DNA of 64,000 nucleotides from Paramacrobiotus metropolitanus (lineage: Eukaryota > Tardigrada > Eutardigrada > Parachela > Macrobiotidae), in NCBI RefSeq assembly GCF_019649055.1, contig NW_026570237.1, positions 1,364,001-1,428,000 on the forward strand. The letters are read 5' to 3'. A program made the translations under genes and the position numbers. Of the stretch, positions 8,401 through 50,104 are shown in pieces. The notes beneath the pieces were generated by a model. That model worked only from the letters and a program-made list of their open reading frames with translations. It searched no databases and was not told where the DNA came from. Numbering within the stretch: the stretch's first letter is position 1; each line of letters starts with the position of its first letter.

Positions 8401-11400
8401 ATGTCCGATCCCGCAGCTTGTTCCGTGTTGTTGTGTCCTTCTTCGGAGCAGTCGCGTTCCTTGCGCAGCGTGTGTTTCTTCGATTTCCCGCATCCGAACG
8501 ATCCGCGCTATCCCGTTTGGATTGAACGCACTCTGCGGCCAAAAGAGTGGACTCCGTCTCCGTCCAGCAAAATCTGCAGCAGACACTTTCGTCCATCAGA
8601 TATCCTTGCATTGCCCCTCGCTGACGGCTCCGGACGAACGGAGAAAAGATTGAAATACGATGCGCTGCCGTGTGTTTTCGAAGGCATTCCCGATTCAATG
8701 CGTCCGCAAACACATGTTGTGCCGCGCGCAGACAGCCCCGAAATAGTTCCTTCCACTAACTGTACGTGCGTTTTTTAAAAACTTTATTGTACTCGTTTAA
8801 ATGTTCCTTTCGTCAAAATGTTCCTTTTGACAATCGAACCTTTTGCTGCTGCATAGCAGCTACCATACAAATTGATAAAAATAATGATCAATATTTATAG
8901 CATGTGATAATAGCCCATAGCACTGCTATGCAAAGACATTTTACGTTGTTTTGTTACAGGTTCAAAAAAGCGCTCTGCCGATTGCTTGGACGAAAGCATC
9001 TCTGACGAAGCCGAGAAAGAATTTAGCGACTCCCTGAATGCTTCAACCGAAGTCCCCGACGCATCTAAAAATGCACAGTCGAATGTTTCGCTCACAATTC
9101 TAACGATCCAATCGAATAACTCTACAAGCGCGAATGTGGCTGGACCTGTTATTTCTGCAGCCACAGTTTCAGGTGCGAAAAAGGCCAAGCTTGTTGTTTC
9201 TCCTGCCGTCAGCGCGCCGATACCTATCCCCATTCGCCCCGCTTGTTCGCTGGATACGAAGATTATCGACGGACGACTCACGGTGTTGGAACACTGTGCT
9301 AAGCACATTCCCGTGGATTATCCTGCTCGAACGGACGCCGGCGAGGCCCGCAAGTGCTGCGTTCCCGGATGTTCTTTCGGGCGCGATGATAATCCACAGA
9401 GAAGAGTTCAATTCCACGCATTTCCCACGGACGAACGCTTCCGAACTGAATGGATCAAGCGGGTGGCGTGTTCCAGTTTCTGGCAGCCCGCCCCGTATTC
9501 CGTCGTGTGCAGCGTTCATTTTCTCGAAACGGATTACGGTTTTATTGGTAACCTTTTGTGTCTGAAGCCGACAGCGATCCCGTCGCAACTGGGATGCCGG
9601 AACGGATTGATGCGGAAGTTGAATGGACCGTGCCCGTTCAGTCGGGTGTGTGCAATCTGCGGATGCTGGAGAGCGATCAAGCAGACTACCTACTATAAGT
9701 CCGCGTCCCAGTTGGCCTTTGTTCCGTTTCCAGAACAAGCGAATGAGCGACTGAAGTGGTTGGCTTTCTGCCGTGAGGTTCCGTGTGCGGGTGAATTCTA
9801 CGCCTGTGAGCGGCACTTTGCCCTGGCTGACATTCTGGCACGGTTTGAGCAGGATAAAGAAATGAAATTCGAGCTGCAGCGACGTGATGGTATCCTGCCA
9901 CATCCCAGCCAACTGCTCGTACCGATTCCTCTGCAGAGTCGAGCTCCGTCGCTCATTGCTCCACGACCTTCTCCTTTGAGAGCTCCGTCGCTGATTGCTC
10001 CACGACCTTCTCCTTTGACAGCTCCGTCGCTCATTGCTCCACAACCTTCTCCTTCGAATAACACAAACAACAGCCAGAATAAGTCTTTCGCAAATTTTTT
10101 GAACGGGGCAGTTCTACAAAGCCGAACGGTTACCGCTACTCCGTCCGCTTTATTGATACATTCAGCTGCATCTTCGGCCAGCCCGGGCGGTTTTTCGTTC
10201 TTGGTGGTGCCTAATCAGACCGCAGCTCCGGCTGTTACTGCTCCTCTTGCGCCTCCAGTGACTAAACGGCTGACACTAGACCCTTCAAGAAATGTGCAAC
10301 CTCAAGTTGCTGTTGCTGCCCAGTCGCATCCGCATCCAGTTCGATTCGAGAAAACCACATGCGGTCAGTGTGGTTTGCGATTCAACACATATTTATCGTA
10401 CAGTATCCACGAATATGAACATGGAGGCAGAGAATTAGCCGAATATATTAGAAGCAGAACCGCGTGTTCCGATTGTGCAGAAAAATTTGATAGCTTCGAC
10501 GCTTTGGTGGAGCACGTTAAGATTCACGGAAGACAAACGGAAGAGTGTCCCGTTTGTAAGGGACGTTTTCGCGCGCTGAACGACCATATTCGACGTGATC
10601 ATCCTGATTGCCAGTACCGATCGAGGAAGAGTCCGGACCGCGTTCGGAAAGATAATCTTCACCGGTGTGGAGAGTGTGGGAAGGTATTCAAAACAGCTTA
10701 TGCTTTTGACATTCATGCCAAGGTATGTCAGCGAAGTGAAAGCGCATCGTTGGAATTTGATTAACCTGTTCTGTAATCGTTTGTTGCGTTCCATTTGTTT
10801 ATACAGAAAGATTCTAAAGAGAAATACAGAAATGTTCTAAAGAATTTCTGGTTGTTTCATTGCAGGCTCACCGCGCTAGAGCCTTGTGGGCCACTCTGAC
10901 GTGTAGCGACTGCGGTCTGCGCTTTAAGACGGATGTCTTATGCCGGTTGCATAAAATCCACCACGGAAATGAAGAATCGACGGAGCTTATTCGTGACACA
11001 CGAGAATGTCCTGACTGTCATCAAATCTTTGAGAGCCAGGAGGGACTAGTTGAACATGTTAGGGAGCACGGGAAAGCAACCGAAAAATGCGCACTGTCCG
11101 AAGAACGGTATATCTCTTTGGCGAACCTTATAATACGTGATCACCAAGCCCAAAATCCACTGAAAGCAGCGGTTTTGGCATGCTGCGTACCGGGATGCCA
11201 GAATGTGTGGGAGCCAGAGACACAGATTACACGCGCATCAAAAGTGTTGTTCTTTCGATTCATTGGAGCCGCTCATCCGCGTTTTGAAACTTGGATGCGG
11301 CGACTGCGGTACAACTCATCCTGGGTTCCGCATTTTCACGAGAGGGTTTGCAGTGATCATTTTTACGAGTCCGACATCAGATTCAAGAATGGCAAAGCTT

Positions 11401-14190
11401 CTCTCCTGCTAACAGCGGTACCGAGTCAGTTGTCCTGTATGAGCGCATTATGCGGGTTTACCGCAGCAGATATGGCTACCGGAGCAGTTGGTTGCGCTGT
11501 GTGTGGCCTGCGTCCGCCAGCTGACAGACAACCGAAAGCATCAGAGAAGCTGACGTTTTTTCGCGCACCTCCGTCCGCGTTGGATGCATTGCGAAAGAAA
11601 TGGATAGACTTCTGTAATCAGCAGCGGAACGACATCGACTGGGCATCCATTGGGGCGGATACGCCGTGGTATCTGTGTGAAAACCATTTCGAAATGAGGG
11701 ACAGAAAAGCGACAGAAAACATTGGCTCCCTCGCTAGTGATACGGAAGCAGTTCCGTCATTATCTTATTTTTTGGACTTGAATTACGCTGACTCAACGCC
11801 GACGACATCTGATGGTGATTTGTATGGAAATTCCCTGATGCGCATTGGCACTTTCTGTTGCGTGCCGGGATGTGAAACTATGTTAGAAAAAGGTGTCACC
11901 TGGTCAAAAACATTTGTTATGTTTCTTCCACCAGATGATGAACGGTATAATGAATGGCTCCGGATGGTGCGATACAATGCTTCCTGGATTCCCGGGAGTC
12001 GTGCGAAAATTTGTCGGCAACACTTCCCTGCATCGGCATTCGAGCTGCGATATCGCAAGAAAGGGTCTCCAAAGTCTGCCTGCCTACTTAATACAGCTTT
12101 CCCCACTCAGCTTTCTTGCATGGAATCTTTGTGCACGTTCACACCGGCCGACATGATTGCGGGGAAACAAGGCTGTGCTGTGTGCGGTCTTCGTCCGTTC
12201 ACGCCCAACCGCCGACTGAAACTCTCGGAGAAGCTGGAGTTCTTCCGGGCACCCTCGGGCGAAATCAGAGAGAAATGGGTTGAATTCTGCACATCACAAA
12301 GAATGGATATTGACTGGTCGTTGATTCCGGAGGAAACACCGTGGTATCTATGCGAAAACCATTTCGATGCGCAGAACAAGGCGAAATGTGCTGAACAGAC
12401 AGCAATCCCTTCCCTTTCGTTTTCCATGTACGTTAATTCCGGAGCTTTAGAAGCTTTTGCTGGTCCAGACGATGAAGGAATCAAAAGTGCAAAGAAAAAA
12501 AGAAGGAAGCGTCTTCGTCCGCCTGCTTGCTGTGTGCCGGGATGTCGGATGTTCGCATGGAACGAGCCCCTATCGGCGCCGGTATCCTTTCATTATGTCG
12601 GTCAAGGGATCGGGTCTCGGGATGATTGGGCAGATCATATCCGATGTGCCGTTTCATGGAGACCTAAGTCACGCGATACAGTGTGCAGTCGCCATTTCTG
12701 CCTTGGAGACTTCCGCGAAACAAGCTCCGACCAACCGCTACAATTCCGAAAATTGAGAGCGAACGTAGTGCCGTCTAAGCTGGATTGTACTGCAGCGTAC
12801 CGCGCTCCAAAGGATACAGATGCGTTATTAGGAAGGGAAGGTGTCCAGACGTGTTGTGTGTGCGGATGCTGGCGGCCACTGGACAAGACTGACCTAATTC
12901 TATCTGAGAGACTGAGCTTCTTTCCCTTTCCGGATGACGAAATCCTACGTGATTCATGGGTGACCTCTTGTCGTCAATGGAATCCCAATTTGACCGTGTC
13001 GAAAGAATCGGTTATTTGTGAGAATCATTTCTCGTTGGATGATTTGACATGGCTGCTGGAAGATGGCAAAGAAGCCAGACTGGTGCCGAAGAACAGTGCT
13101 ATGCCGACATGTGAGAGACTGCCTGTGCCTGTCAGATTAAATACTAACGGTGCTTTTGCAAGCAAGAAAAGTACATCAACTAGCAGCAGGAAGAGTACAT
13201 CAGCGGCGGCAAATGCTGATCGCATCACCGGCTACAAATGCTGCGTGCCGGGATGTGGGAATCGTGCGCAAGTGGAAGGCAAGTTGGAGAAGATAACCTT
13301 TCATGTTTTTCCTGGTCTCTGCGCTTCATCTCGCTTCTGCGAATGGATGAACCGGATTCGTTGCTCGATTTCGTGGACGCCTCACCCGCTCAATCGAGTG
13401 TGTAGTAAGCATTTTAGTCCTAAGGATTTTATGGAAGAAACGGCGAAAGGCAGGCAGCCTCGCACTAATCTGTTGAAGAAAGATGTGGTGCCGTCTATAT
13501 TGCAGTGTGCTGAAAAGTTTCGAAGCCCGATGAATTCGGGTGAATCGGCTGAATTGAATGAAGTACGCACGTGCTGTGTATGTGGATGGTGGCGTGCAGC
13601 CGGAGAGAAGAGTATCCAGTCTGAAATTCTGACATTTTTCTCGTTTCCTGCGGAAGATGGTCACCGCGAACAGTGGGTGAACATTTGCCGCGAATGGAAT
13701 CCCGATTTCGTCTTCTCGGAAGGGTTGTTGGTGTGTGAAAATCATTTTCAGTTGGACGAACTGACGTGGGCGCATGTGAGTAAGGTGAACGGGGAACTGA
13801 AACTACGAAGCGGTGCAGTTCCGTCGGAAAGATACCTGCGTCCGCTCAGTTTTGCGGACGATACAAGAGCTCGAGATGACACTGCTGAAATGGTGGCAGG
13901 AGTGCCATTCGATGATCTTACTGGGTTGTCTTCGCTTAATCCGGACGCTGATTCGGTGGATGGGGATGATAGCGAAGCTGGCAACGACACCTGCGTATAC
14001 GAAGAAAGAGACTGCATGTCGGTGGATGAGAATGCATGGAATTACGATGCAACGGCGGATGAAGAGTCGCTCATGGAAACTGACGACCCGAACGTACCCT
14101 TAATGGACATCACGATTTCTAAATGTGCTCCTCTGAGGACGACGAGAGTCGCCGAAAATGGTCTTCCGGAAGATGAGAGCTATACTAACG
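8401..14190 (+). other. Unit A THAP array (11 domains in exons 1-3)
   Basis: Exon 1 encodes one THAP domain: Cys pair near the N-terminus, FFDFPHPNDPR, W, ICSRHF, and the closing DALPCVF box that corresponds to the AVPTxF box of THAP proteins. Exon 2 (8960-10722) has one a/b pair, a Pro/Ser-rich linker with a tandem repeat of about 13 codons (APSLIAPRPSP type, 9940-10050), and a four-finger C2H2 module. Exon 3 (10866-14190) begins with three C2H2 motifs, the third degenerate (second Cys is Ser, one His is Leu), then four a/b pairs. Subtype a starts CCVPGC and ends C(S/R)xHF. Subtype b starts with CAVCGLRP or CCVCGCWRP and ends CENHF. Both carry an (A/V)(V/I)P(S/T) box afterwards. THAP domains are C2CH zinc-dependent DNA-binding modules related to P-element transposase. 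Confidence 0.85.
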
Positions 14191-17100
14191 GTAAGGGGGC
14201 ATTTTGTCGAAGTGCACAAGGATGACGAAGTTTAACGATCTGGTTGGGGAAATGTGAGCATTATTTGGATCTTCTTTCGTTCCAATTTTTAAAAAATTGA
14301 GCGATTATAGGCACTTTGTAAATCTCCGCATACATAGTGCGTAATTTTAAGTGGTATGTTGTATTGTTGACGTTTTATGGTTTCAGTCGGCACCTTATTT
14401 GACATGCCCTCAGCGCTCCCGTTTAGCACCGACGCGCAAATTGGGATTACTCCCCCTCCTTCGCCCCCGCGATGTGCCCCGGATGATGCTTTAGTGTGTA
14501 AGAGCGTACATAGATCCATTTTTTCAGTTGATCCGCTAAATGTCACGGATGTTACGATACTAACGAGTGTCTACACCCATGCTTATAGATTGCGACTGTT
14601 GTCACAAATTTCTTCCCACTCCATGTTGGCTACACGCAGCCAGCATTTGTGATGAGCCAGTTGTTCCGTTGGCCGTCGGAAGTTTGCCGAAGATGCTTTA
14701 CTTGGATGTCTGCGATGATTCGCAAACTGGTAGAAAAATTTTGTCTGCTACTGCCCATCCAGTCCGGTGCCTATAAAGTCATTGAAATGTTTAGGGAAAA
14801 CAGTATTCACGAAGGAGGTGATTGCCCGGCACACCGTGTTTGGACCGTTAATCGCACCACTGACGCCGGGTAACAGCGAAAAGGCGCTATACTTTTCTGT
14901 TACGGAAGAGCAGCGCAGGTATTACGAACTGGAATCTGAATACGCATGCAACTGGATGAAGCATGTCCGGTTCGCGGACAGCCTGCAAAACAGCAACTTG
15001 CTGGTGTTCTCGCGCGGATCGGAAGTGGTTTTTGTCACCATCAAGACAATCGCTCCGCACGAAGAACTCAAGGTCTGGTATTCCAAGCAGTACCTGGATA
15101 TGGTGGAAACGCACGGAAACGCTGCTGCTGAAGATGTTAAACTGGAAATAGACGATGAAGGTAAATATTGTGTCAAGGTAACACTTTAATGGAGAATGCT
15201 GTAGAATTTTACGTAACTTGATGTTTTGATGACCTACAGTTGAGGGGACGTCTTTGCCATTCGATGATTATGGCGAATTAGCAGAAACCGCACCTGGAGA
15301 CCATGAAGTGACTGGAAGTTGTCCATTTGAAGCAGTTTGTGTGGCCCATTTACCAATGGAAAGAGTTTCATCGTTGCCAATGGAAAGCGTGTCATCGTTG
15401 CCATTGACAGTAGATGATGATTATCTGCAGAGTGACCAAAGATCTTGTGTACGCTCAAAAACAAATCGAACCAACAAATCGCGAGGTTTTTTCACCAGCA
15501 ATATTTGTTTGGAATGCAACGTAAGGTTTCGGAGAGAGGATATGCTGCGTTTGCATCAGTTCAGCCACACGGGCTACGATGGGCAGCCTGAACGAGAGTG
15601 TCCGGAGTGTTCGAAACATTACGATGATTTTCCTGCTTTACTGAAGCATGTTGACGAGCATGGAACGCCGCTTGTGCAGTGCCCGGTCTGCAGCGAAACG
15701 TGCAGTTTAAGCGCGATTTTCATGCATCTACACCGTTATCATCCCGGAATTGAACGGAGAAAGTTGTATTTGAGGAGTTCGATCTGCAATAAGTGCGGCA
15801 TGCGATTTGGCAGTAATTTTCTTTGTCGGTTACATCAGTTGGGTCATCAGGACCAGGAGTGTATCAACAGCATAAAAATTACGCGAAAATGCCCGGAATG
15901 CGGTGAGATGTTCGAGAACCTCGATAAACTGGCGGCGCATGTGGATGTGCACGGAAAGCTAACGAAGAAGTGTCCAGTTTGCAACGGTTATTACCCTGGA
16001 ATGAAGAGACATATTGCACGCAGCCATCCGCAGTTTTCAGCCGAGAGAACTTGCCCGGAATGTGGGAAACAATTCGCGCACGAATCCTCCTTTGTGCCCC
16101 ACATGCGGGTTAGTGTTTACCTTCGTTGATGGTCGTTTAGGTGCTTGAGTCAGCTTGACTACATGAAAATACTCTTGTTGTGGTTATAATTTTAGGGCCA
16201 TCGGATCAGAGCATCTCTGGACAGTTGGACGTGCCGGGAATGTCGACTGCAGTTTCCGAAAGACAGTTTATTTGTCTTGCATAAGAGCAGCCATGATACT
16301 GCAGCCTATAACGCAACTGCCGGCGCGCAGAGATGTTCCGAATGCGCGGAAGAGTTTGACGGGATGGATGCACTGCTTGAGCATGTTCTGACGCATGCTG
16401 TACCCGCGGAGAACTGTCCCGAATGCGGCCACTGGATCGGCCGCAACCGTTTGCGTAAGCACATGAAGAACCAGCATCCTGCGCGAGCGCTGCCTACCCA
16501 TATGAAGCGTCACCACTCGGCGCGTGCGCACCGATCTGTTTTACAACAGGACGAGTCGAACGATAGTGCATTCGTTGACAAAGCGCACGATGAGGTACAA
16601 AGTAATACTAAAAGGAACCCTATTTCGAAAACTTGTTTTTTTACAGTTTTGATGGTTTTACAGCTTCATAAGAGAACGCCAGTTGAAGCGTTAGCTTGTA
16701 CTGATTGTGGGTTGCGGTTTCTGACCGAGGATCTCCTCCACATTCACGAATTTAAACACACGAAAATGAAACTTCCATTGGCACTGGACAGTGTCCGGAG
16801 TGCAAGAAATCCTTCGCCGTGGCGGATGATCTTGTGGAGCACGTACAAGCACATGCATCAAACACGAGGAAATGTCCATTGTGTGGTCGGTGGCGTGTAA
16901 ATATGTCTCAGCACCTCAAGCAAAAGCATCCTGAGAATAAGAACGAAACATACCAGTGTCCACAGTGTAGTGAACGCTTTCGGTTACGCCGCCGCTTGGA
17001 GCAGCACATGCTGGTGAGTGGTAATGAATACGCATAGTATGAACGTGCCGCTTCTGCTGGTTTGAAATTCTCGGAATAATGCTGTGCATAGTCGTCACTT

Positions 17101-22098: not shown

Positions 22099-22260
22099 TC
22101 AGCAGGACTTACTGATCCGGAATTGTAATGGCGTCAGTTTAGTGGCTTTTGTTTGAAATCCGTAAGCATCGATATTGACGTCGGCTGTATTTTGATATTT
22201 TTGTAATAAATACTATTTTGTGATATCATGAGTGTGCATTAGCGATAACTGTTGTCTGTT

Positions 22261-22408
22261 TAAGGCGCAATTCAAGTATTGCGTAACGGAAATTTTCAAC
22301 TTTTTTGACCACCCCCCCACCCTTTTGTGACCTTTATCCATGTATTACTTATGGGCGGGTAACGCCCCCACCCCCTGAGCCGTTACGTAATACTTGAATC
22401 GCGCCTTA
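22261..22408. mobile_element. MITE-like element with 29-bp terminal inverted repeats
   Basis: The first arm (22261-22289) starts TAAGGCGCAATTC. The last 29 bases (22380-22408) are its reverse complement at 27 of 29 positions. The 148-bp element has a C-rich interior and no coding capacity. TA at each outer edge could be the target duplication, which would fit a Tc1/mariner-type element; this family call is inference. Confidence 0.75.
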
Positions 22409-36504: not shown

Positions 36505-37724
36505 TCAGCAGGACTTACTGATCCGAAATTGTAATGGCGACAATTTAGTGACTTTGGTTTGGAATCCGTAAGCATGGATATTGACGTCGGCTTGTGTTTT
36601 GTTATTTTTGTATTAAATACTATTTTGTGATAGCATGAATGTAAGTAAATTAGTGATTACTGTCATTGCTGGTTTCTTTTATATATGATAATTGCTTCGT
36701 TGGAGTTATCGGTTTCAGTTCGCATTTCAGGGATTCTTTTAATCAGTCGTTGCTATTGTTTTTTATATGCTAAGGCATCGTATTGTTTTGTTTAATAAAG
36801 AAGACGCTGTTGGTTTGTCACTAAGAAATGCAAAGGAATTTCACAAGGAAAAAACAAAGTACTACCGCTTATTTCTACACTACGTTAACCACGCCACCCG
36901 CCCGGTGAGGCAGGCTGCACAGTGTAAGCTAAAAACAGCTGTAGCAACAACTGCATTCCTTCCATTTATTTTGCACTGCACTTCTATTTTTTGTTCGGAC
37001 TGTTCGATGAGTTTTTGAAAGTTCTCGCGCATTTTCACGATTTCACTATTTCTCATGTTGCAGTTATTGCATTTATACTACGAGTATGAATTTCAGTTTT
37101 AGCCTACCAGTGTGAGTGTTACGTAGATTTTGATGGAGTGCTGCAGCTGCTGCTGGACGAATACTCGTTTCATCTCCGTTTCCCCTCTGCTGTGAGGAGC
37201 ATGTTTTCCTCAAATGATTCCACGGTATTTTGGGACGCTGTCACCACTACTCGTAGTGGACAGATTGCTCCCTAGTTGATTAGCTGTTGGGCAGGAATCT
37301 CCCAGTTTCGAAATATTGACTCGAGGATTGGCTCCACTGCAGATTTGCTGCGTGAAGAACTCTCGTCTCTAAGGTTGGTATTGGATTTTCTGGTCACGGC
37401 TAGCATAAGCAGGAGCTGCAGGACTCCGTATAAATTTAAAAAAATTGCGGAATTTTTATACAATTTGAGTTTGGCAGCCGCTGTAGTCAAGGCCTTTAAG
37501 AGTGTCACTTGTCACTTTGTGCAGTAAATGCGGTCTGCCCACCAAACGAAAAATACAGTATACTTGGGCCCTTGGCCTATCGTTCGTCTGCTTTAAAACT
37601 GGCAACGAGAATATGCTATCATTGTCACGTTGTGATTGACTTTAATTTCCTTGATTGATTTGATGTTAATTTTAATTCATTGGTTTTTCGTCGATTGTAA
37701 TTTGTACTGTTTTAGGCAGGAGCG
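36505..37724. other. Spacer between units B and C
   Basis: No gene is visible. It contains the poly(A) signal of unit B, the repeated non-coding element (36845-36945) and the upstream block shared with A and B (about 37150-37320). TTTTAG followed by GCAGGAGCG lies directly before the ATG of unit C, again like a 3' splice site. The MITE of the A-B spacer is absent here, so it inserted after the duplication or was lost. Confidence 0.5.
36845..36945. repeat. Conserved non-coding spacer element, copy 2
   Basis: Contains ACCGCTTATTTCTACACTACG and CCCGGTGAGGCAG, matching copies 1, 3 and 4 in order and spacing. Confidence 0.55.
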
Positions 37725-40700
37725 ATGTCCGATCCGGTAACATGCGCCGTGCTGTTATGTCCTTCGGCGGAGCAGTCGCGTTCTTTACGGAGTGTGTGTT
37801 TCTTCGATTTCCCGCATCCGAACGATCCGCGCTATCCCGTCTGGATTGAGCGCACTCTGCGATCAGAAGACTGGACTCCGTCTTCATCCAGCAAGATCTG
37901 CAGCAAACACTTTCGTTCGACCGATATCATCGCGTTGCCGCACGCAGATGATTCCAAACGAACGGAGAAGCGGCTGAAATACGATGCGCTGCCGTGTGTT
38001 TTCGAAGGCATCCCCGATTCCATGCGTCCACCAGCCGATGTGGTGCCGCGCGCTGACAGCCCCGAAATTATTCTGGCTGGTCAGAGTAAGTGCGGATTCC
38101 AGCAGTTTTTTTTGTTGACATGATCCATAATCAAATGATAGACGAATTCTGTTTTGAATAATCCGGAAATAAAAATTATTTGAAAATTGAAAATAAAATT
38201 TCAGTAGGGAAGCAATTTGTCAACCAAGGCATTTCCGATTCTATGCGACCGCCAACCGATGTGGTGCCGCGCCCCGACAGCCCCGAAATCGTTCCGACCA
38301 CTAACTGTAAGTGTCACTGTGTTAGTGCTTCTCAAAAATTTTAATTGTTGGTTAATCCCGTCTGCTAAAATTACATGAGCTAGCCAGATTCTGTTTTAAT
38401 GATTCTGGGTTTTCCAATAAAATAAAAGATTAGTACTGAAGTAGGGACGAAAACTATCTAAAATGGCTTTTAGCTTGTACAAGTTGTCAATAAAGCAGCA
38501 TCTACCAGGTGAGCGAAGTGACGACCACGTAGTACGATGTTGTTTGTGAATGTTAAATTAGGACGATGAAAGCTTGGCAGTTTGATTTTGCATTTTGTTA
38601 TTTGTTTTCTGACAACATTCTGCTGCATCCTTAACAGTGGAAATATTGACTTCACTGATGGTGAGCGGTATATTTTCGTGCTCTGTAAATTGGTATGATA
38701 CCGTAGTTAGAGCGGTTCCTAACCTTTTCATAAACATTTTAACACATACATTGAGATTTTTTCAGTTGCAGATTGATTTGCAAAATATGTCATGCGATAG
38801 CTCATAACACTGCTTTGCAAAGACGTTTTACGTTGTTTTGTTTCAGGTTCAAAGAAGCGGTCTGCCGATTGCATGGACGACAACATCTGTGATGAAACTC
38901 AGAAAGAATCCAGTGACCTCCTGAATGCCTCAACCGAAGTCGCCGAGGCACCCACAAATGCGCATTTGAATGTTTCACTCACAGATCCAGCAATCCTATC
39001 GAATAACTCTACAGGTGCGAATGCCCCCGGACCTGTTTTTTCGGCAGCCGCAGTTTCAGGCGCGAAAAGGACCAGACTTCTTCCTCCTCCTGTCGTCTGC
39101 GCGCCGAAAACAATCCCCATTCGACCCCCGTGTTCGTTAGCCCGGAAGTTCGTCGACGGACGACTAACAGGGGTGCAGCACTGCTCGCAGCACATACCCG
39201 TGGATTATCCTGCTCCCACGGGCGCCGACGAGGCCCTCAGGTGCTGTGTTCCTGGATGTCTTAACCGGCGCGATAATAATCCGCAAGGGAGAATCTATTT
39301 TCACGCGTTTCCCACGGACAAGCGCTTCCAGACCGAATGGATCAAGCGGGTTGCGTTTTCTAGCTTTTGGCAGCCGGCTGCGCATTCCGTTGTGTGCAGC
39401 GTCCATTTTCTCAGCTCGGATTACGGTTTTATTGGTAGCATTTTGTGTCTGAAACCGACAGCGATTCCGTCACGGTTGGGATGCCGGAACGGACTGATGC
39501 GGAAGTTGAATGGACCGTGCCCGTTCAGTCGGGTGTGTGCCATCTGCGGGTGTTGGAGAGCCATCAAGCAGGACTCCTACTACAAATCCGCGTCGCGAAT
39601 GGCGTTTATTCCGTTTCCTGAAGAACCGAGCGAGCGACAGAAATGGTTGACGGCCTGTAATGGAGTTTCGTGTGAGGGTCAATTATATGCCTGCGAGCGG
39701 CACTTTGTCCTGGCTGACATTCTGGCACGCTTTGAGCAGGACAGAGAAATGAAATTCGAACTGCAACGACGTGACGATATCCTGCCACATCCCAGCTTCC
39801 CTGTTTTTATTCCGTTCCCTCTGGAAAAGCGAGCGCCGACAATGTCCGGTAGCACACAGGTTGCCATTGGTCCACTTTCTTCACCTACGAATAGCTCCAA
39901 CAGCAGCAAAAATCCCTTGAATGGGGCCGTTCTACAGAACCCGACGGTTGCAAATACTCCATTTTCTTTAGTGATACGGTCAGCAAAGCATTCTACCAGT
40001 CCGGAAGGTTACAGAATCTTACTGATGCCTAAGCAGATTGCACTTCCGGCTGTTGCTTCTCCGACTGCGCTTCCTCCGGTTGGTCCTTCGAGGGAAGCTT
40101 TTGTTCGAACCAATCCATCAATACCAATGAAGCCATCCCAGCTGCCGACATGCAGTGAATGTGGTATGCGCTTCGGCGCAGACATACAGTATTGTGCCGT
40201 ATCCACGAGTATGAGCACGGAAACATGGCAGTATCTGACGATCTGATAAGCACAACCGCGTGCGCTGCATGTGCAGCAAAATTTGACAGCTTCGCCGCGT
40301 TGGTACAGCATGTGAAGATTCACGGTAGACAAACGGAGGAATGTCCCGTTTGTCAGCGACGTTTCTATGCATTGAAGGACCATATCCGTCGTCATCATCC
40401 GTCGCAAGTGAATGCAGCATGTTGTGTACCGGGATGCCGGATCGTCCGCCAAGAGTCGTCACAAACAGCCAAAGTGTTGTTCTTTCCGTTCGTTGGGGCA
40501 ACTGATCCGCGGTATAAAACGTGGACACAGCGATTGCGCTACAACTCATCCTGGGCTCCCGATTTTGACGAGAGAATCTGCAGTGATCACTTTCACCAGT
40601 CCGAAATCGAATCCGACAAGAACGGCTCTCGTCTCACAAGAACAGCTCTGCCCAGTCAGCTGTCGTGCGTGACTTCATTAAGCGGGTTTACCGCAGCAGA

Positions 40701-43284
40701 TATGGCTTCCGGAGCAGTTGGGTGTGCCGTGTGTGGCTTGCGTCCGCCAGGTGATAGACTACCGAAAGCATCAGAAAAGCTGCAGTTTTTTCGCGCGCCT
40801 CGTGCCGAGTCGGAAACCTTAAGGCAGAAATGGGTGGAGTTCTGCAGTCAGCAGCGCAGTGATATCGACTGGACATCCATCGGGGCAGATATGCCGTGGT
40901 ACCTGTGTGAAAACCATTTTGAGGAGAAATACAAAAACGATGTGGAAGGGCTGGGCTCCGTTGGTGAAGCAGTTCCGTCCTTGACTTATTCCTTGGACGT
41001 TAACTACACCGACCCGAAGCTGACGGCATCTCACTCACTGATGCGTGAAGGCATTTTCTGCTGCGTGCCGGGATGTGAAGCTGCTTTAGAAAAGGGGTAT
41101 TCGGTGGTAGGAAAGTTTTTCTGTTTCCTTCCACCAGCAGATGAGCGGTATGATGAGTGGTTGCGGATGGTGAGGTATAATTCTTCCTGGAATCCCGAGG
41201 GTCGTACCAGAATTTGTCGGGAACACTTTCCTGCATCGGTAATCAAGCACCGCATGAGGGATTCCAAACCAGCTGTGCGTCTACTTAGATCTGCTTTCCC
41301 CACGCAGCTTTCCTGCATGGAATCTTTGTGCACATTCACACCGGCCGACATGATTGCGGGAAAACAAGGTTGTGCTGTGTGCGGTCTGCGCCCGTTTGAA
41401 CCAAATCGAAGACTGAAAGCCTCGGAGAAACTGGAGTTCTTTCGGGCACCATCGGGTGAAATCAAAGAGAAATGGATTGATTTTTGCAAGTCGCAAAGGA
41501 ATGATATTGACTGGATTTCGATCCCGGAAGAAACACCGTGGTTCCTCTGTGAAAATCATTTTGATGCGCAGAACAAGGCGAAATATGCTGCGCAGAAAGC
41601 GATTCCTTCCCTTCCGTTTTTCAAGTATGCCAGTGCGAGAGATTTGGAATCTAATCCAGGTAAGAAGGAAGAAATTAAGCGACGTCAATCTGTTTGCTGT
41701 GTGCCGGGATGTCGGAAATTCCCATGGGACGAAACGCCTCCGGCTGTGTTTGGATACTTCAAGTGGTCAAAGGTGAATCGGAATGAATGGACGAATCGTA
41801 TCCGGTGTTCCCTTTCATGGAGTCCTAAGAAAAGCGATCATGTGTGTAGTCGCCATTTCTGTCCGGAAGATCTTTGCAGCACAACTTCCGATCAATCGGT
41901 AAAAGCCCCGAGGTTGAGAGTGAACGCAATGCCGTCTCAGCTGGATTGCACTGAACAGTACCGCGCTCCAAAAAATGCAGATACGCTAGTGGGAAGGGAA
42001 GCTGTACAGACGTGCTGTGTGTGTGGATGTTGGCGGCCACTGGACGAGACTTGTCTTATTCCTTCCGAGAGGCTGAGCTTCTTTCCTTTTCCGGATGACG
42101 ATATCCTACGTAATTCATGGATAACTGCTTGTCGCCAGTGGAATCCCAGTTTGACGGTGTCGAATGAATGTGTTATTTGTGAAAATCATTTCATGATGGA
42201 TAATTTGACGCGGCTGTTGGAGGATGACAGTGAAACCGGGTTGGTACCGAAGAGCGACGCGATTCCAACGGAAAGGACATTTGCTGAGCTGCCTGTCAGG
42301 TTAAATAAACGCGGCACAGCTGTGCGAAGCAATAACAGCAAGCCAAGGGAACGCTACAGCGCCAACAAGTGCTGCGTACCGGGATGTGGGAATCGTGCGC
42401 AGTTTGAGGGCAAAAAGGAGAAGATAACTTTTCATATGTTCCCGAGCCTTGGCACATCGCCCCGCTTTTGTGAATGGTTGAACCGGATTCGCTGTGCGAT
42501 TTCCTGGAAACCTGATCGACATAGTCGAGTGTGTAGTAAGCATTTCTGTTCACAGGATTTTATGGAGGAGACATTAAAAGGAAAACAACCGCGCACTAAT
42601 CTGCTGAAGAGAGATGCGGTGCCGTCTCTGCTACAGTGCGTTGAAAAGTTTCGCAGCCCGATGGATTTGAGTGAACCGGTTGAGGTCAGTGCAGTACGCA
42701 GTTGCTGTGTGTGTGGCTGGTGGCGCAGTGCTCACAAGAAACTTGTCCGATCGGAAGTACTGACGTTGTTCCCTTTTCCTTCGGATGGTGAGCAGCGCGA
42801 ACGCTGGGTGAATATGTGCCGCGAATGGAATCCCGATTTCGAACTCTCAGATGGATCATTGGTGTGTGAAAATCATTTTCAGTTAGACGAATTGTCTTGG
42901 GTAGTGGAAAATAAGTCGAACATGGAGCTCAAATTGCGAAGCGATGCAGTTCCGTCGGAGAGATGTCTTCGTACGATGAACGCTGCAGACAATCCGAGCA
43001 CGCGCGGCCACACTGCTGATGTATTGGCAGGATTACCGGTTGATGATCTCTCTGGACTTCCTTCGTTTGATCCCGACGCAGATACGGTGCGGGAGGATGA
43101 AAGTGAAGTTGGCAGTGGCGCTGGGGTCTGTGAAGAAAGAGATGTTGTGTTGGTGGAGGAGAGCGCTTGGGATTTCGATGCCAGGGAGGGTGAGGGTTCG
43201 CTCATGGAAGTTGAGGATGCTGACGCACCTTTAATGGACATCACAAACTCCGTATGGACATCACCAACACCTTTGAGAACGTGA
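37725..43284 (+). other. Unit C THAP array (11 domains)
   Basis: Exon 1 is a THAP domain (ICSKHF, DALPCVF). Exon 3 has one a/b pair, a Ser/Pro linker, a finger 1 broken by the 5-base insertion, two further C2H2 motifs, and then four a/b THAP pairs read in one long frame to the stop at 43284. All metal-ligand patterns of the ten later domains are present (CCVPGC...CSVHF to CCVCGWWRS...CENHF). The part before the insertion and the part after it are in different frames. Confidence 0.8.
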
Positions 43285-46200
43285 TACGTGTGATACGTGT
43301 AGAATTTCCAATACGTGTGATACGTGTAGAATTTTGCCGTTTGTGATACGTGTAGAATTTCCAAAATATAACAGACTCACAACTGACAACAACGCATAAC
43401 ATGTTTAGTTATGAATGACACTGGTTAAAAAAGACAAAAACATAAAATTAAATCAACATGAAAATTAGTTACTAATTCTGAGACTACTCGAATTAATTTT
43501 GTAAATGTTATTTTCTGATGAATGATGTAGCACGAGACTTATATTGCAGGATTGAGTTATGTTACCTTGTGGACGTTTTATGGTTTCAGTTGGCACCCTG
43601 TATGACATGTCATTAGCGCTGTCGGTTACGACAGAAGATTCAGTGGAGATTGCTCCTCCGTCGCCCCAGCGATGTGCTCCGGATGACGTGTTAATGTGTA
43701 AAACGAACTGCTGATCCCTTTCTTGTTATAAATGAATAATAATAGGCACCTGGTCATTTTAGACTGTGACTGCTGTCATAAATTCCTCCCTACTCCGTGT
43801 TGGCTGCACGCTGCCAGTGTCTGTGATGAGCCAGTTATTCCGTTGTCCGTCGGCAGTTTGCCCAAGATGCTCTACTTGGATGTTTGCGACGATTCGTTAA
43901 CAGGTAAATTGGCTGACTTTCGCTCGCGTTTTCAAGCACATACATAACTGATTAATTCGTTTAGGGAAAGCTGTGTTTGCCAAGGAAGTCATTGTCCGTC
44001 ACACGGTGTTTGGGCCGTTAATTGCGCCGTTAATGCCGGGTAACAGCGAGAAGGCGTTGTATATTTGTATTACGGAGGAGCACCGTAAATATTACGAACT
44101 TGAGTCGGATTACGCGTGTAACTGGATGAAGCATGTCCGCTTTGCGGACAACCTGCAAAACAGCAATTTGCTGGTGTTCTCGCGCGGATCGCAAGTGGTC
44201 TTTGTCACCATTAAGACAGTGTCGCCGCACGAAGAACTGAAGGTCTGGTATTCCAAACAGTACCTGGATATGGTGGACACGCCGGTAAACGCTGCTGTTG
44301 TGGACTTTCAACTGAAAATGGAGGATGAAGGTGAATATTTTGTCAAGCGAACGGTATTCGATTTGGCTTAGATAACGTGTTTCTGCAGTAAAGGGAACTT
44401 TTTTACCATCTGATGATTACGCCGAAGTGGCAGACGCAGTACCGAGGAACAGTAAAGTGACCGGAAGTTCCCCAGTGGAAGCTGTTTGTGTTTCTCATTT
44501 GCCGATGGAAAGCGGGTCATCGTTGCCAGTGACTGTGGACGCTGATTACCGACAGACTGACGAAGGCTTTCGTGTACGCTCGAAACCCAGGCGAACAAGA
44601 AAAACGGAAAATTTTTATACCAGCAATATATGCTCGGAGTGCAATATGAGATTTCGGAAGGAAGATATGCTGCGTTTGCATCAGTTCAGTCACACGGGCT
44701 ACGATGAACAGCCTGAACGAGAGTGTCCTGAATGCTCGAAACATTTCGACGGTTTTCCCGCTTTACTAAAGCATGTCGACGAGCATGGTACACCGCTTGT
44801 GCAGTGCCCGGTCTGCAATGACACGTGCAGTTTGGGCGTTATCCTCGTGCATCTTCGCCGCTACCATCCCGGAGTCGAAAGAGGAAAGCTATATGAGAAG
44901 CGTTTGAATTGTGATAAATGCGGTATGCGATTTTCCTATAACTTCCTCTACCGTTTACACCAGCTGGGTCATCAGGACAAGGAGTGTGTCGACAGCATAA
45001 AAATTTCGCGAAAATGTCCGGAATGCGGTGACATGTTCGAAAACTTGGAAGAATTGGCGGAGCACGTGGATGTGCACGGAAAGCTAATGAAGAAATGTCC
45101 AGTGTGCAACGGCTATTACCCTGGCATGGAGAAACATATTGCACGTGATCATCCGCAGTATTTGGCCGAAACACGTTGCCCGGAATGTGGGAAAGAATGC
45201 GCGAATGAATCGTCCTTACTGCACCACCTGCAGGTTCGTTTGTACATTCATCGAGGGTCGTTAAATACTTGACTACGTTTACATATTCCTAACGTGGTTA
45301 TACTTTTAGGGTCATCAGATGAGAGCATCTTTAGATAGCTTGACATGTGACGAATGCAGACTGCAATTTGCGAAAGACAGTTTATACGTCCTGCACAAGA
45401 GCAGTCATGAAACTCCAGCCTGTCACGCTATTTCCGGCGCGCAAAAGTGCCCTGAATGCGACGAAGAGTGTGACGGCATGGGTGCACTGCTGGAGCATGT
45501 TGTCAAGCATGCTGTCGCCGCGCAGAAATGCCCCGAATGCTACCATTGGTTCCCCCGCCACCGTCTGCGTTTTCACATAAAGCGTCACAAATCGGCGCAT
45601 CATTCTGTGTTACAAGAGAAAGAGTCAGTGAAAAGACCAAATTTGGCTGCGTTGACTTGTGCTGATTGTGGACTGCGGTTTTCTACCGTCGAGCTTGTCC
45701 ATTTGCACAAGAATAAGCATTTGGAAGATAAGATTTCCGTCAGCACCAGACAATGTCCTGAATGTAGTAGATCGTTTGCCGTCGCGGACGACCTTGTGAA
45801 GCACGTTGAAGAACACGCGACTATTACGAGGAAATGTCCAGTGTGTGGTGTGTGGCGTGCACAAATGAGTCAGCACCTCGCTCAAAAGCATCCTGGGTAC
45901 AAGGACGAAACACAGTACAAATGTCCACAGTGCAATCAACGCTTCCGGTTACGCCGCCGCTTGGAAGAACATATGCTGGTGCGTGATGATGAATTCATAC
46001 GAGATTTGCCACTTCTGATGATATACTAATTTTAAAGTTATTGCTTCAAAGTCCTCACTTGGGGTTCAACTTGCAAACACAAAAAGCTTTATTCTCACAA
46101 AGTCTATCCAGTACAAGTTATGGGCCGGTTAAACGCACGCTGTTGCAATTGTGATCATTTGTTCAACTTGTAACGGCGTGTGCGATCGGTGTGTATTATC

Positions 46201-49200
46201 TGCGCATTAAAATGTGAAACTAAAAAGCAAAATGAGTTTTTATTTTTGTAATTTTTCCACACCTAATAGGAAATTGGAACATGCGTTCTGTTTTTTTTTT
46301 CAAAACATATAGCGAAAGTGATAGGTTGTTGAGAAATGTCGAAGCGGGGATACTTGTTCTAATGATCGCATTTTAATTTCAGAGGCACGGACAGCAGGGC
46401 CGTTTCCGGAAAACCACATGTACTCAGTGTGGTTTGCGTTTCAGCACCAAATTATTGTGTCGCATCCATGAATACGAGCACGGAGACAAAGAATTATCAG
46501 ACGATCTGCCAAACCAAACTACATGTGCTGAATGTGCGGAAGAATTGGAAGGTTTCGATGCATTGGTGAAGCACGTCAGAATACACGGCCGGCAGACGGA
46601 GGAATGCCCGGTTTGTATGGGACGTTTTCATGCGCTGAACGAACATATTCGGTATCATCATCCCGGCTGCCAGTACCGGGTGAGGAAGAACTATACATTT
46701 TCTACGGAAGACAATTCTTACCGGTGTGGAGAATGCGGGAAGGAATTCAAGTCCGGTGTCGGTCTAACCGCGCATGTCAATGTATGTCAACTGGTTTCGA
46801 AGGGTTTTTCGTTTCGATTAATTTGTTCGTTTATTTTGTTCGATCGCATGAATACTGTTCGAACGAATAGTATTTACGAATCAGTGTTTTCGGGCATTCT
46901 GCAGTTAAGTTGATGGGTGCTTCGTTGCAGAGCCACGTCACGAAAGCTTTACTGACCGCTCGAACGTGTAGCGATTGCGGTCTGCGATTCAAGACAGATA
47001 TCGGATGCCGACTGCACACAGTGCGTCATGGAAATGTAGAATTAACGGAGACCATGCGTGACACACGACGGTGTCCTGAATGCCGTCGGAACTTTGAAAG
47101 ACTGGAGGAATTGCTGGACCACATTAGCAATCACGGGAGATCAACGGAAAAATGCCCGGTGTGCGGAGACTGGTATGCTGCTTTGACTGTTCACATCCGG
47201 CGTGACCATCCAGATTTCCTCCCCAAAAATGCTATTACACCACGAAAATCTACGAGCGACGGCTTGAATGCTGATGATGCCATCGACGATGTCTGCAAAT
47301 GTCCAGATTGCGGCAAAGAGTTTAATTCACGCACCAGTTTTAACAAGCATGTTGTGGTATGTGCAGTGGCTACTGGTAGTTATTCGCGTATGAAAAATAA
47401 AGTATGAACTTGTAGGCAGTTAAAAATTTACGTGGTTCACATTTTTAGAATCACCGGACAACCGACAAGCTCAAAACTCTGACGTGCAGCGAGTGCGGTC
47501 TGCGATTTACAAGCGATGTGTTGTGCCGGTTGCATGAGGTCTGCCATGGCAAAGTAGAGGTGTCGGAGGCTGCTCGTGCCACTCGAGATTGCCCGGAATG
47601 CGATAAAGTCTTTGCAGAACTTAATGAATTGGTGGAACATGTGGCACTGCATGGAAGACACACGGATAAATGTCCGGTGTGCGGACAATGGTATGCCTCG
47701 CTGAAAGAACACATTCGCCGTGACCATAATGAACATTTCGCGGAATTCGTCGCTCAAGAGAAACTAAACTGCGCCACGTCCAAGTCGAAGGAACGTGGTG
47801 GATATCGGTGCGGGAAATGTGGAAAAGAACTTCCCACGCGTAACAGCTACGATTTACATATGAAGGCGGGTGTTTTTTATATTACTAAACTGTTCGTTTT
47901 CAGCCACATGAAACTAATTTTCAGGCTCATCGTTTCAACGAAGTTACTACTGTTGCATTTGTAGAGTCATCGGTTGAAAGAAATGAAATACGGGCATCTG
48001 ACGTGTAGCGACTGCGGACTGCGGTTTGGAAGTGAATCCTTATGCAATTTGCATCGGATGCAGCATGCTGATAAGGACAATTTGACCGATCGTCAGGTGG
48101 ATGTGGATGATTGTCCGCAGTGCGGTGAATCCTTCCAAGAAGTTAAAGAACTGGTGGAACATGTGGCATTACATGGAAGACGCACGGATAAATGCCCGGT
48201 GTGCGGTCAGTGGTACGCCGCGTTGAAGGAGCACATCCGTCGTGATCATAATGAACATTACACGGAATTCGTCGCTCAAGAAAAATCAACTAGCGACACG
48301 CCCAAGACGAAGAAACACGGTGAATATCGTTGCGAGAAATGTGGAAAGCTGCTTCCCACGCGTACCAGCTACGATTTTCATACGAAGGTGGGTGTTTTTT
48401 TCAGTGCGGTGTTGATTTTGAGCTGCAGGAGGATATCCATTTCAGGCTCATCGTTCCAACGAAGTGACGTACAATTCTGTGACTTGCAACGATTGCGGAT
48501 TGCGATTTAGAAGCGGGTTGCTGTGTCAGCTGCACAAATTGCAGCATGCCAGCGACGGATGCAGCAACGAGGAATTAAAAAACACAAAATCCTGCCCCGA
48601 ATGTGAAGAAGAATTCCAAGGAGTCGCATTGTTGGGTGCTCACGTTGCTGTACATGGCAAAGCGACCAGCAAATGCCCGGTGTGCAGTCGTTGGTACGGT
48701 GCTCTCCGATTCCACGTGCGGCGCGAACATCCAGAACATTTTTTGAAATATACCGCACAGTTAAATGCCAATCGCGTACAAGTCCCGGCTAAAGCCGTAT
48801 CTGATGAATCGAAGCGAAAAGAGACTCCACGGAAAGGCTATCGTTGTCCGAAATGTTCCAAGAGTATTGAGAATTTCAGTGCTTTCACGTGCCACATGCA
48901 GCAGGTTAGTGTATTTATGTGAGAAAATTTGTTTGGCATTGTTTAATGAATTTAATAATGCTTGCTTTTAGAGTCATGGCGTGGAAGAGCCAGCCGGCAT
49001 TGGGACGTGCGACATGTGCGGTTTGCGGTTTCTGAGCGAACAGCTTTGTGAACTGCATAAAGTACAGCACGGATTATTTAGCAAAAATCTACAGTGCACA
49101 GGAAAATGTCCCGAGTGTGGAGGGAAATTTCAGCAGTTGCAAGCGTTGGCAGAGCATGTTGCCACGCACGGAGTGCAGACGGAGAAATGTTATGTATGCA

Positions 49201-50104
49201 ACAAGTGGTTCGCTTCACTGCGTCAACATGCTCCACGATGTTTTAACCGCGCCGTTGTCCATGACCGTTCCGAATTTTCACCGTTGGTTGATTCCCTTGC
49301 GAAAGCGTCGTCACCTCGAAAAACTGGACACAGAAAGAGATACTTTAAATGTCAAGAATGCATTAAGGAATTTCGTTCGCGGGATTTTTTGCAAGCGCAC
49401 ATGAAGGTTGGTTTTGTTTTTCCTTTCAGTGGATTGAGGGCTTCGGTAATCATAATTTGTTTGTTGTTTTTCAGGCTGATCACGCGGCACCGAAATGCGT
49501 GGTTTGCGACGAAGTTTTGGGTAGCGTTGATGATCGGCACCAACATATGCTCACTCACAGCACAACAAACGATCTGAAATGTGGCATCTGCAAGAAAACA
49601 TTCCAGTCATCGCGTAGTTTTGCGGCGCATGTGAAAAAGCATGCAAATGGGAAATTATGTGAACCCATTGCAGAAGAATTTGCGCCTGATGAATGTGTGG
49701 TGTGCCGGAAGTCATTTGCGGATTTTCTTCAGCTGAATCAGCACGTGAAAAAGCATAACCTTCATGGTGGATTTGAATGCGCGATGTGTGCTGAAAGGTT
49801 TCCTTTCTATTATTTATTGTCCCGCCATGTGATGGAGAAACAGCATTGGCGTCCGAAAATCGGCATCCCTTGCAGTGTCTGCCATGAAGAGTTGCCCAAC
49901 GAAAACGCCTTGCAGTTGCATTTATTTACGCACCACGATGCGGAGTTGACAGTCAAATGTTGTTGGTGCGCGGAACGGTTCACGTGCAACGATGATCTCG
50001 ACGTGCACATTGCTGCGGTGCATGCACCGGCAGATGGGGAGGATTATGGAATGGAGGAAGTCGCTGTGGATGACGAGTTGTTCGGGAATGTTGGCGGGAA
50101 CTGA
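37725..50104 (+). CDS. Unit C: giant THAP-array / zinc knuckle / PR-SET / C2H2-array protein, possibly split
   Basis: Exons: 37725-38085, 38205-38306, 38847 to about 43280, 43590-43697, 43763-43903, 43965-44330, 44389-45233, 45310-45978, 46383-46781, 46931-47356, 47449-47865, 47965-48387, 48446-48904, 48972-49406, 49475-50104 (TGA). About 3,400 codons. It has one exon that A and B lack (38205-38306), a fused exon 3 in which the intron between the two C2H2 modules is gone, and a fused exon at 45310-45978 (exons 8 and 9 of A). Damage: a 5-base insertion in finger 1 of exon 3 (about 40187), a stop at 43282-43284 where A and B have a phase 1 donor, and a frameshifted C-terminus. The stop leaves the THAP part and the PR/C2H2 part without a visible in-frame join, so C may encode two proteins or none. 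Confidence 0.6.
38205..38306 (+). other. Extra exon of unit C, a partial duplicate of exon 1
   Basis: The 102-base segment is bounded by TTTCAG and GTAAGT, is phase 1 on both sides and adds 34 codons without changing frame. Its end (GISDSMRPP, DVVPR, SPEIVPTTN) repeats the end of exon 1 of units A and B. It has lost the zinc ligands and is only the tail after the THAP domain. In unit C the tail of exon 1 itself has diverged (EIILAGQ), so the duplicate keeps the version closer to A and B. Confidence 0.65.
43270..43366. repeat. Short tandem repeat at the broken end of unit C exon 3
   Basis: The word GATACGTGTAGAATTT and the shorter GATACGTGT occur in about four close, partly degenerate copies. 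They begin where units A and B continue with AENGLPED and the phase 1 donor, and the first copy supplies the TGA that ends the frame. Confidence 0.7.
43763..44330 (+). other. Unit C zinc knuckle and PR/SET domain
   Basis: Exon 43763-43903 gives CDCCHKFLPTPCWLH and exon 43965-44330 the PR/SET with CNWMKHVRFA and EELKVWYSKQYLD. Lengths (141 and 366) and phases equal those of units A and B. The upstream linker exon is 43590-43697 (108 bases, one codon shorter). Confidence 0.85.
44389..50104 (+). other. Unit C C2H2 finger array
   Basis: Nine exons with the four-finger module plan. The exon at 45310-45978 joins two modules without the short intron that A and B have. One intron (47866-47964) appears to begin with GC instead of GT. 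One junction has an extra Gln (HMQQ then SH), giving H-x4-H. The last exon has six fingers but ends early because of a frame change near 50080-50095. Units A and B end with ECYQELMAGLSDDSNE; here the matching bases are present but out of frame. Confidence 0.75.

Follow-up and report, generated by a model that had tools for sequence, protein, structure and literature searches.

We analyzed a stretch of 64,000 nucleotides (here, the window) from the tardigrade Paramacrobiotus metropolitanus, namely, positions 1364001-1428000 of contig 17 (NW_026570237.1) in the 169.8-Mb assembly. The window contains three genes of the same build that follow one another head to tail, i.e., copies A (8401-22098), B (23534-36504), and C (37725-50104), as delimited by exon models (Table 1). 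Each combines an array of THAP domains, a linker exon, a zinc knuckle, a PR/SET domain, and a long array of C2H2 zinc fingers. By the Pfam cut-offs, the copies are members of the THAP family as well as of the PRDM family, with the PR domain followed by C2H2 fingers. A preceding sequence-only reading had listed 11 THAP-like domains, a C-x2-C-x7-C-x2-H knuckle, a PR domain ending in WYxxxY, and about 40 to 57 C2H2 motifs per copy and had assigned them to a single gene. Profile searches for the THAP and PR domains and pattern searches for the knuckle and the C2H2 fingers recovered all of these parts in order in copies A, B, and C, and the comparisons below favor the single gene. What that reading could not see is the genome-wide spread of the combination, the several origins of its THAP domains, and their relatives in resident transposons. 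As best read, the PRDM genes of this genome appear to repeatedly capture, swap, and multiply THAP domains of transposases.

Pfam THAP (PF05485) stretches in the open reading frames (ORFs) of the exons number 11 in each copy (1+2+8 in A, 1+1+1+8 in B, and 1+2+8 in C), as claimed earlier. The third THAP of copy B (window positions 24855-25652) is weak (20.7 bits versus a cut-off of 23.9), all other THAP ORFs of the three copies exceed 23.9 bits as whole ORFs, and 23 of the 33 domains, taken singly, are listed above the cut-off in the genome scan. The genome scans scored 150 of 180 candidates for THAP and all 96 for PR, and the resulting counts are lower bounds. The first THAP domain has its own exon with a start codon and is followed by two more, by one or two C2H2 modules, and then by eight in one exon. 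In all three copies, these last eight (THAP 4-11) form four doublets in which an alpha type (CCVPGC...) alternates with a beta type (C-x-V-C-G...). The THAP signature consists of C2CH zinc ligands and a conserved Trp, Phe, and Ala-x-Pro; across the 12 doublets (24 of the 33 domains), the Cys, the C-x2-H, the Trp, and the Pro near the end are invariant, and the rest of the tail box varies. A predicted structure of the THAP doublet (predicted local distance difference test [pLDDT] score of 74.8) gave four matches with a probability of >=0.99, all of them THAP structures and none reaching an E value of 0.001. The PDB matches of the doublets are THAP1, THAP2, THAP11, and the P-element transposase.

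The PR domains score 78.6 (A), 76.6 (B), and 75.1 bits (C) against PF21549 (cut-off, 27 bits), and all three end with WY. By sequence, they are nearest to PRDM10 (the best PDB match), followed by PRDM1 and PRDM11. The knuckle upstream reads CDCCHKFL(P/S)TPCWLH in the three copies, with the spacing described earlier, and aligns with that of PRDM11; PRDM9 chains match the same range. The linker exon separates the THAP exon from the knuckle exon. Pattern counts of C2H2 fingers before and after the PR domain are 6 and 46 in A, 7 and 41 in B, and 1 and 38 in C, which makes the earlier estimate about right. Further C2H2 modules separate the first three THAP domains from the last eight, and fingers thus occur on both sides of the PR domain, which corrects the earlier picture of a different array on either side of it. 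Neither the PR alignment nor the THAP-doublet alignment had a relative in a collection of viral contigs.

Splice sites were compared among copies A, B, and C and five opposite-strand copies on contig 17 at 1305-1355 kb (eight copies). The donor of the THAP exon is in phase 1 in seven of the eight, being clear in A and B and not recognizable in C. Six of the eight share the position of the linker acceptor, which is displaced six bases in a PR-less copy and broken in copy m1341, and the knuckle and PR acceptors are kept in all seven copies having these exons. All three window copies begin their linker, knuckle, and PR exons in phase 1, and their conservation drops at the exon edges. Of the matching splice phases seen earlier, those of the three acceptors and of the THAP-exon donors of A and B were reproduced, and that of the donor of C was not.

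Ratios of nonsynonymous to synonymous substitution rates (dN/dS) relative to copy A were 0.06-0.16 for THAP 1 (seven pairs), 0.30-0.37 for THAP 4-11 (seven pairs, of which three cover the exon in part), 0.01-0.08 for the knuckle (six pairs), and 0.12-0.17 for the PR domain (six pairs). They were also well below 1 in the finger exons, with a dS of ~0.2-1.4 across the compared exons; the short linker (0.34-0.83) is weak evidence. Non-orthologous or saturated best matches were given no ratio; this affected two of seven pairs in THAP 2-3, one pair each in the first C2H2 module and the first finger exon, and two pairs in the last finger exon. A paralog, L005 (C17:1345000-1354999, minus strand; 1347-1353 kb), has lost the knuckle and the PR domain, and an open frame runs from its linker to the first fingers; the paralog perhaps encodes a THAP-C2H2 protein without a PR domain. 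Because nearly all of the eight copies retain the phase-1 splice sites, dN/dS is well below 1 in both halves, the PR-less paralog is open in frame from the linker into the fingers, and the THAP-knuckle-PR-C2H2 order recurs in single genes on other contigs, each copy is best read as one gene with a THAP array, a knuckle, a PR domain, and a C2H2 array, which would be expressed as one transcript.

Several observations weigh against the one-gene reading. The linker holds an in-frame ATG in seven of the eight copies, and a separate PR gene starting there is conceivable. L005 keeps a GTAAGA at the old linker end, which leaves its read-through less than certain. The exon finder, a small dynamic-programming program written in-house, served to place exon edges and not as proof of a single gene; across seven loci and four settings, it united THAP and PR in a single exon model in 12 of 14 runs when each gene carried a cost but kept them joined in just 2 of 14 runs with free gene boundaries, in which the finger arrays were split too. 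(With its first setting, it fused most of the window into one gene; the models of A and C agree with the start at 8401 and the end at 50104.) Both the ATG and the free-boundary runs would fit a THAP-array gene and a PRDM gene that are mere neighbors, duplicated together and transcribed apart. We nevertheless hold this to be improbable: the phase-1 donor ends the THAP exon in seven of eight copies with diverged sequence beyond it, the codons upstream of the linker ATG stay in frame up to the acceptor, the linker and fingers of the PR-less paralog share one open frame, and dispersed loci with a single THAP domain show the same order. There are also irregularities, i.e., a frame change in copy B between THAP 2 and THAP 3 (~25.0-25.1 kb), which may be damage or an assembly slip, an altered end of the THAP exon in C, the broken linker acceptor in m1341, and the PR domain lost in one paralog. 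A tandem cluster decaying without function would show such defects, yet this is the least probable of the explanations considered, given that THAP, knuckle, PR, and finger exons alike have a dN/dS well below 1 at the divergence stated above and that there are open frames of 1041-1179 codons.

We identified 84 PR loci in the assembly (85 before merging one split hit), of which 20 have a same-strand THAP domain within 6 kb on the 5' side. PR loci with a THAP domain on another flank were fewer, with five on the same strand on the 3' side and three and two on the other strand; in a tandem row, the THAP domains of the next gene can fall on the 3' side of a PR domain. Outside contig 17, 6 of 34 PR loci have a 5' THAP domain, compared with 0.04 expected under uniform placement. 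L006 (C26:567500-576500), L007, L015, and both L014 genes have, in order, a single THAP domain, a knuckle, a PR domain, and fingers. The pattern scan for knuckles was negative between THAP and PR at L010 (C73:231500-241400) and L011, where a knuckle-like exon with one extra residue nonetheless lies. Exon models place THAP and PR in one frame at four of the seven dispersed loci (L006, L010, and both L014 genes). On one side, L006 is flanked by a xylulose-kinase-like ORF, and its other neighbor is presumably a sulfatase-type ORF. In a tree of 31 PR domains from the 84 loci, the THAP label (14 with and 17 without) requires five changes, and the seven fetched array genes with a PR domain form one clade (99/99). 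Counting against the overall explanation are the 64 of 84 PR loci with no THAP domain found within 6 kb on the 5' side and the defects of the dispersed models: of the four joined ones, one has a stop at the junction and one is without a knuckle, the L015 model joins THAP and knuckle without the PR domain, and L007 and L011 are unjoined. Published counts of PRDM genes, according to an excerpt of PMC2082429, are two in nematodes, three in arthropods, and seven in sea urchin. With 84 PR loci in one invertebrate genome, the family has undergone a large lineage-specific expansion. As a separate observation, an opposite-strand THAP domain lies between two PR genes at L021 (5844-6074; contig 17, ~706.8-707.1 kb, minus strand), and it groups with the free THAP domains L039 and L048 in the THAP tree.

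The THAP tree comprised seven single-THAP PRDM rows, the 11 THAP domains of copy A (the only ones from the window), and 41 other THAP domains of the genome; of the 66 THAP hits on other contigs than 17, it drew on 38, along with two from contig 17. The THAP seed set had been cleared of two C2H2 false seeds, and L067 is labeled as free although it is located in the array region. Nine of the 41 free rows (L028, L029, L030, L032, L044, L045, L057, L058, and L064) were checked for nearby transposase parts. The PRDM-linked THAP domains do not cluster as one group: a single clade of the seven single-THAP rows, labeled when the tree was built, was rejected (p = 8.1e-5), as was a grouping of L006 with L010 (p = 2.7e-6), a pair named after the tree was seen. 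The THAP domain of L006 groups with L028, L029, L030, and L045 (95/91). L029 and L030 are parts of a 4.7-kb repeat present in two copies of 97.9% identity (L068 and a second copy, L069), and L028 and L045 are located within 1 kb of diverged copies (65-69%) of the L068-type DDE region. The transposon copy that was scanned, L068, encodes THAP, HTH_Tnp_4, DDE_Tnp_4, and YqaJ domains, and its THAP domain is 53% identical to that of L006 over 98 residues (E = 5e-41). The first exons of L006 (2512-2800) and L068 (2527-2815) are both 289 nt long, run from an ATG to a GTAAGT donor in phase 1, and align over 96 codons without a gap, with the GTAAGT at the same aligned place; both edges are predicted. 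With a dN of 0.38 and a dS of 1.61, exon 1 of L006 is not a recent insertion, and the ratio of ~0.24 points to constraint. The shared exon edge looks like what the capture of a transposase first exon via its own splice donor would leave.

The THAP domain of L010 groups elsewhere, i.e., with L057 and L058 (98/95), which are parts of an element with 60-bp inverted repeats (L070/L071). This transposon encodes a THAP domain, 53.6% identical to that of L010, and a TNP-like RNase H domain. Of the places of the L070 element (C34:333400-340500, C44, C29, and C130), three share their first 562 bases (99-100%) and have both inverted repeats, with spans of ~3.6, 1.7, and 5.7 kb; a diverged fourth spans ~0.5 kb. 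The THAP domains of L006 and L010 are 30% identical to each other. L010 and L011 are sister PRDM genes in the PR tree (99/94), with tail, knuckle, and PR exons that are 70-76% identical in bases, but their THAP proteins share 23.5% identity (E = 0.03) and fall in different parts of the tree, L011 being a long branch. Most simply, one of the two genes would have exchanged its THAP domain. These inferences are weakened by the size of the THAP tree, which has 89 columns and several long branches, and by the L068 exon edge, which comes from a low-scoring model that is low beyond the first exon.

For the array of the window itself, the 15 alpha THAP domains of A-C match free THAP domains, mostly of the transposase type, with a median best score of 55 bits, which equals that of the best other alpha domain in the same copy (55) and exceeds that of the best beta domain (30). 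The best free match is the L040/L044 pair in 12 of the 15, L049 in two, and L032 in one, and the first THAP domains of the three copies match L032 as well (54-57 bits). L044 and L032 sit in genes with HTH_Tnp_4 and DDE_Tnp_4 domains. At least the alpha and first THAP domains are therefore kin to transposase THAP domains, a link weaker than those of L006 and L010: identity between the window array and transposase THAP domains is 31-45%, and the 14 beta domains, with a median of 31 bits, are without a close free relative.

Taken together, these observations are best accounted for by single THAP-PRDM genes, repeated capture of transposon THAP domains, multiplication of the array, and tandem duplication, an explanation to which we assign a probability of about 0.75. 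The PRDM family would have grown to ~84 PR loci and would have gained an N-terminal THAP domain several times from resident DNA transposons, with the direction from transposon to PRDM gene being the one that we infer. In at least one case, a transposase first exon would have been captured with its splice donor, splicing in phase 1 into PRDM exons. In the clade of the window, the THAP domains would then have multiplied into alpha-beta doublets and the whole gene into tandem duplicates. A point against this scenario is that a structure model of the PR domain built from six window sequences was poor (pLDDT of 41) and unusable. We also weighed a single ancient THAP-PRDM fusion in which the THAP domains diverged later, or from which transposons took THAP domains. 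The recurrence of the phase-1 junction at the modeled loci and the presence of THAP-bearing PR domains in several lineages of the PR tree (five changes in 31 rows) would agree with it, but we judge it unlikely overall. The seven single-THAP rows do not form one clade, the THAP domains of L006 and L010 each resemble a different transposon more than they resemble one another, and the sister genes L010 and L011 carry unlike THAP domains. Moreover, the THAP domain precedes HTH and DDE domains in these transposons, which is its usual place in such transposases.

In the capture scenario, each copy would encode one very long DNA-binding chromatin protein of the form THAP-(THAP, THAP, C2H2, eight THAPs)-linker-knuckle-PR-C2H2 array. 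THAP and C2H2 domains bind DNA in known proteins, and those of copies A-C, which we take to be candidate chromatin factors, probably do so as well. A captured THAP domain would at first recognize the ends of its donor transposon, which could lead to silencing of the donor or to use of promoters derived from it, and a protein placed at such ends or derived promoters would chiefly repress. The tyrosine columns of human PRDM9 were mapped by motif onto the 31 PR domains. The position of Y276 has no Tyr in any of the 30 domains scored (21 Leu, 4 Met, 4 Phe, and 1 Val), that of Y357 has Tyr in 26 of 31, with five unscored, and that of Y341 has Phe in A-C; among the unscored five, the domains at window 51782, window 58347, and L012 2407 have no Tyr at the Y357 position by eye. 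Because Tyr is absent from the Y276 position in all scored domains, the PR domain would act as a recruiting platform rather than as a PRDM9-type methyltransferase. The earlier label of a PRDM9/11 type is hence apt for the knuckle and inapt for the PR domain, with its nearest match in PRDM10. According to an excerpt of PMC5519329, Y276, Y341, and Y357 are the catalytic tyrosines of PRDM9, and losing single residues need not abolish activity.

Finger positions that usually contact bases differ more between copies than other positions do (131/356 versus 127/534), an excess that is modest and pools three non-independent copy pairs; it suits diverging targets. Together with the shared knuckle spacing and knuckle-PR-C2H2 order, this divergence could suggest a meiotic-recombination factor working like PRDM9. 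Such a role is hardly probable in view of the many paralogs, the missing Tyr at the Y276 position, and the limits of the contact-site excess just given. PRDM9 is characterized by a rapidly evolving array of near-identical fingers, whereas the fingers of copy A have mixed spacing and are spread over 11 exons. The 10 N-terminal ORFs of A-C that were scanned, a set without the linker and knuckle exons, had no match to KRAB or SSXRD at an E value of <=0.01. We put forward, tentatively and as a possibility that is more doubtful than the capture scenario itself, that the tardigrade PRDM family serves as a workshop of genome defense that captures transposon THAP exons, swaps them, stacks eleven in one clade, and returns to silence or rewire the donors and derived promoters, as a counterpart of the KRAB zinc-finger and transposase-fusion regulators of vertebrates.

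The neighborhood of the three copies contains further PRDM genes. A PR and C2H2 gene without THAP domains lies directly 5' of copy A (4347-7119; PR, 41 bits), and two more THAP-less knuckle-PR-C2H2 genes are located at 51083-55719 and 57599-62003. The latter two have, behind the PR domain, a repeated stretch with the motif NPFQYPAG, for which a Pfam search of window positions 53514-55073 gave C2H2 kinds only. A similar NPFQYPG stretch precedes the knuckle in L006 (3225-4262) and has no Pfam match. The proline-rich stretch in exon 2 of copy A contains an in-frame 39-bp tandem repeat (2.9 copies; 9941-10054), and a 27-bp tandem repeat (three copies; 43284-43364) is found where the THAP exon of copy C ends. 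Rfam at gathering scores gave no match in the window. Searches for arthropod cuticle proteins (PF00379), nematode cuticle collagen (PF01484), and COX1 were negative; the first two profiles had no match in control genomes either and are thus of little weight. Comparison of a fatty-acid-binding protein and of the xylulose-kinase-like ORF with the PDB pointed to no taxon.

Table 1. Exons and exon groups of copies A, B, and C (window coordinates)
Feature	Position	Strand	Evidence
Copy A exon 1: start codon and THAP 1; phase 1 donor	8401..8761	+	Pfam THAP 48.6 bits; exon model
Copy A exon 2: THAP 2-3, proline-rich repeat, first C2H2 module	8960..10722	+	Pfam; exon model
Copy A exon 3: C2H2 module, THAP 4-11 (from 11181 on), acidic tail; phase 1 donor	10866..14190	+	Pfam THAP, 8 stretches, 244.7 bits as whole ORF
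Copy A linker exon, 111 nt, phase 1-1	14387..14497	+	sequence and splice sites conserved across copies A-C
Copy A knuckle exon, 141 nt, phase 1-1, C-x2-C-x7-C-x2-H	14589..14729	+	aligns to PRDM11 knuckle
Copy A PR/SET exon	14795..15160	+	Pfam PRDM2_PR 78.6 bits, SET 23.8; PRDM10 3ihx E 7.6e-16
Copy A C2H2 exons: 11 exons, ~46 fingers, to stop codon	15240..22098	+	exon model, pattern count
Copy B exon 1: THAP 1	23534..23894	+	51.0 bits; exon model
Copy B THAP 2-11 and C2H2 modules	24395..29497	+	Pfam; exon model
Copy B linker exon	29582..29692	+	splice-site comparison
Copy B knuckle exon	29750..29890	+	exon model; splice-site comparison
Copy B PR exon	29956..30321	+	76.6 bits; exon model
Copy B C2H2 exons, ~41 fingers	30396..36504	+	exon model, pattern count
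Copy C exon 1: THAP 1	37725..38085	+	49.3 bits; exon model
Copy C THAP 2-11 and one reduced C2H2 module; THAP-exon end uncertain	38847..43189	+	
Copy C linker exon, 108 nt	43590..43697	+	splice-site comparison
Copy C knuckle exon	43763..43903	+	exon model; splice-site comparison
Copy C PR exon	43965..44330	+	75.1 bits; exon model
Copy C C2H2 exons, ~38 fingers	44389..50104	+	exon model, pattern count

Several known systems resemble parts of this arrangement. Vertebrate host-transposase fusions reportedly involve joining to KRAB genes. In such fusion genes, a transposase domain joins a host gene by splicing, and new transcription factors have arisen in this way recurrently (Cosby et al. 2021, as excerpted via PMC10719622). 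The tardigrade genes are similar in the homology of L006 to L068/L069 and of L010 to L070/L071, i.e., to resident multi-copy elements, and, for L006 only, in a predicted junction at the transposon's own splice site. They differ from the vertebrate cases in that a PRDM gene serves as the partner, a THAP exon would be what was captured, and one clade has THAP domains multiplied to 11. One genome here displays the kind of donor transposon, the recipient regulator family, the shared exon edge, and a module swap between sister genes, and the step from transposase to transcription factor becomes directly testable outside vertebrates.

HIM-17 of Caenorhabditis has six THAP domains, is chromatin associated and transposase related, and acts on transposon-derived promoters, as described in an excerpt of PMC9757741. 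Copies A-C likewise have several THAP domains in a presumed chromatin regulator, but they also carry a PR domain and a knuckle, neither of which is mentioned for HIM-17 in that excerpt. The knuckle followed by a PR domain is shared with PRDM9 and PRDM11, and the PR domain followed by C2H2 fingers is shared with the PRDM family; the N-terminal THAP domains and the finger modules spread over many exons distinguish the tardigrade genes from PRDM9, PRDM11, and PRDM10, and the PRDM9 tyrosine positions are retained only in part. P elements have been described as a recurrent source of recruited THAP domains (Quesneville et al. 2005, as cited in PMC7776569), to which the present genes would add recruitment into PRDM genes and formation of arrays. 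Among the papers listed by subject searches of open-licence literature, none showed a THAP-PRDM protein. Transposase-host joining, repeated THAP recruitment, and PRDM genes are already known, and the joining of THAP domains to PRDM genes appears to be the new part.

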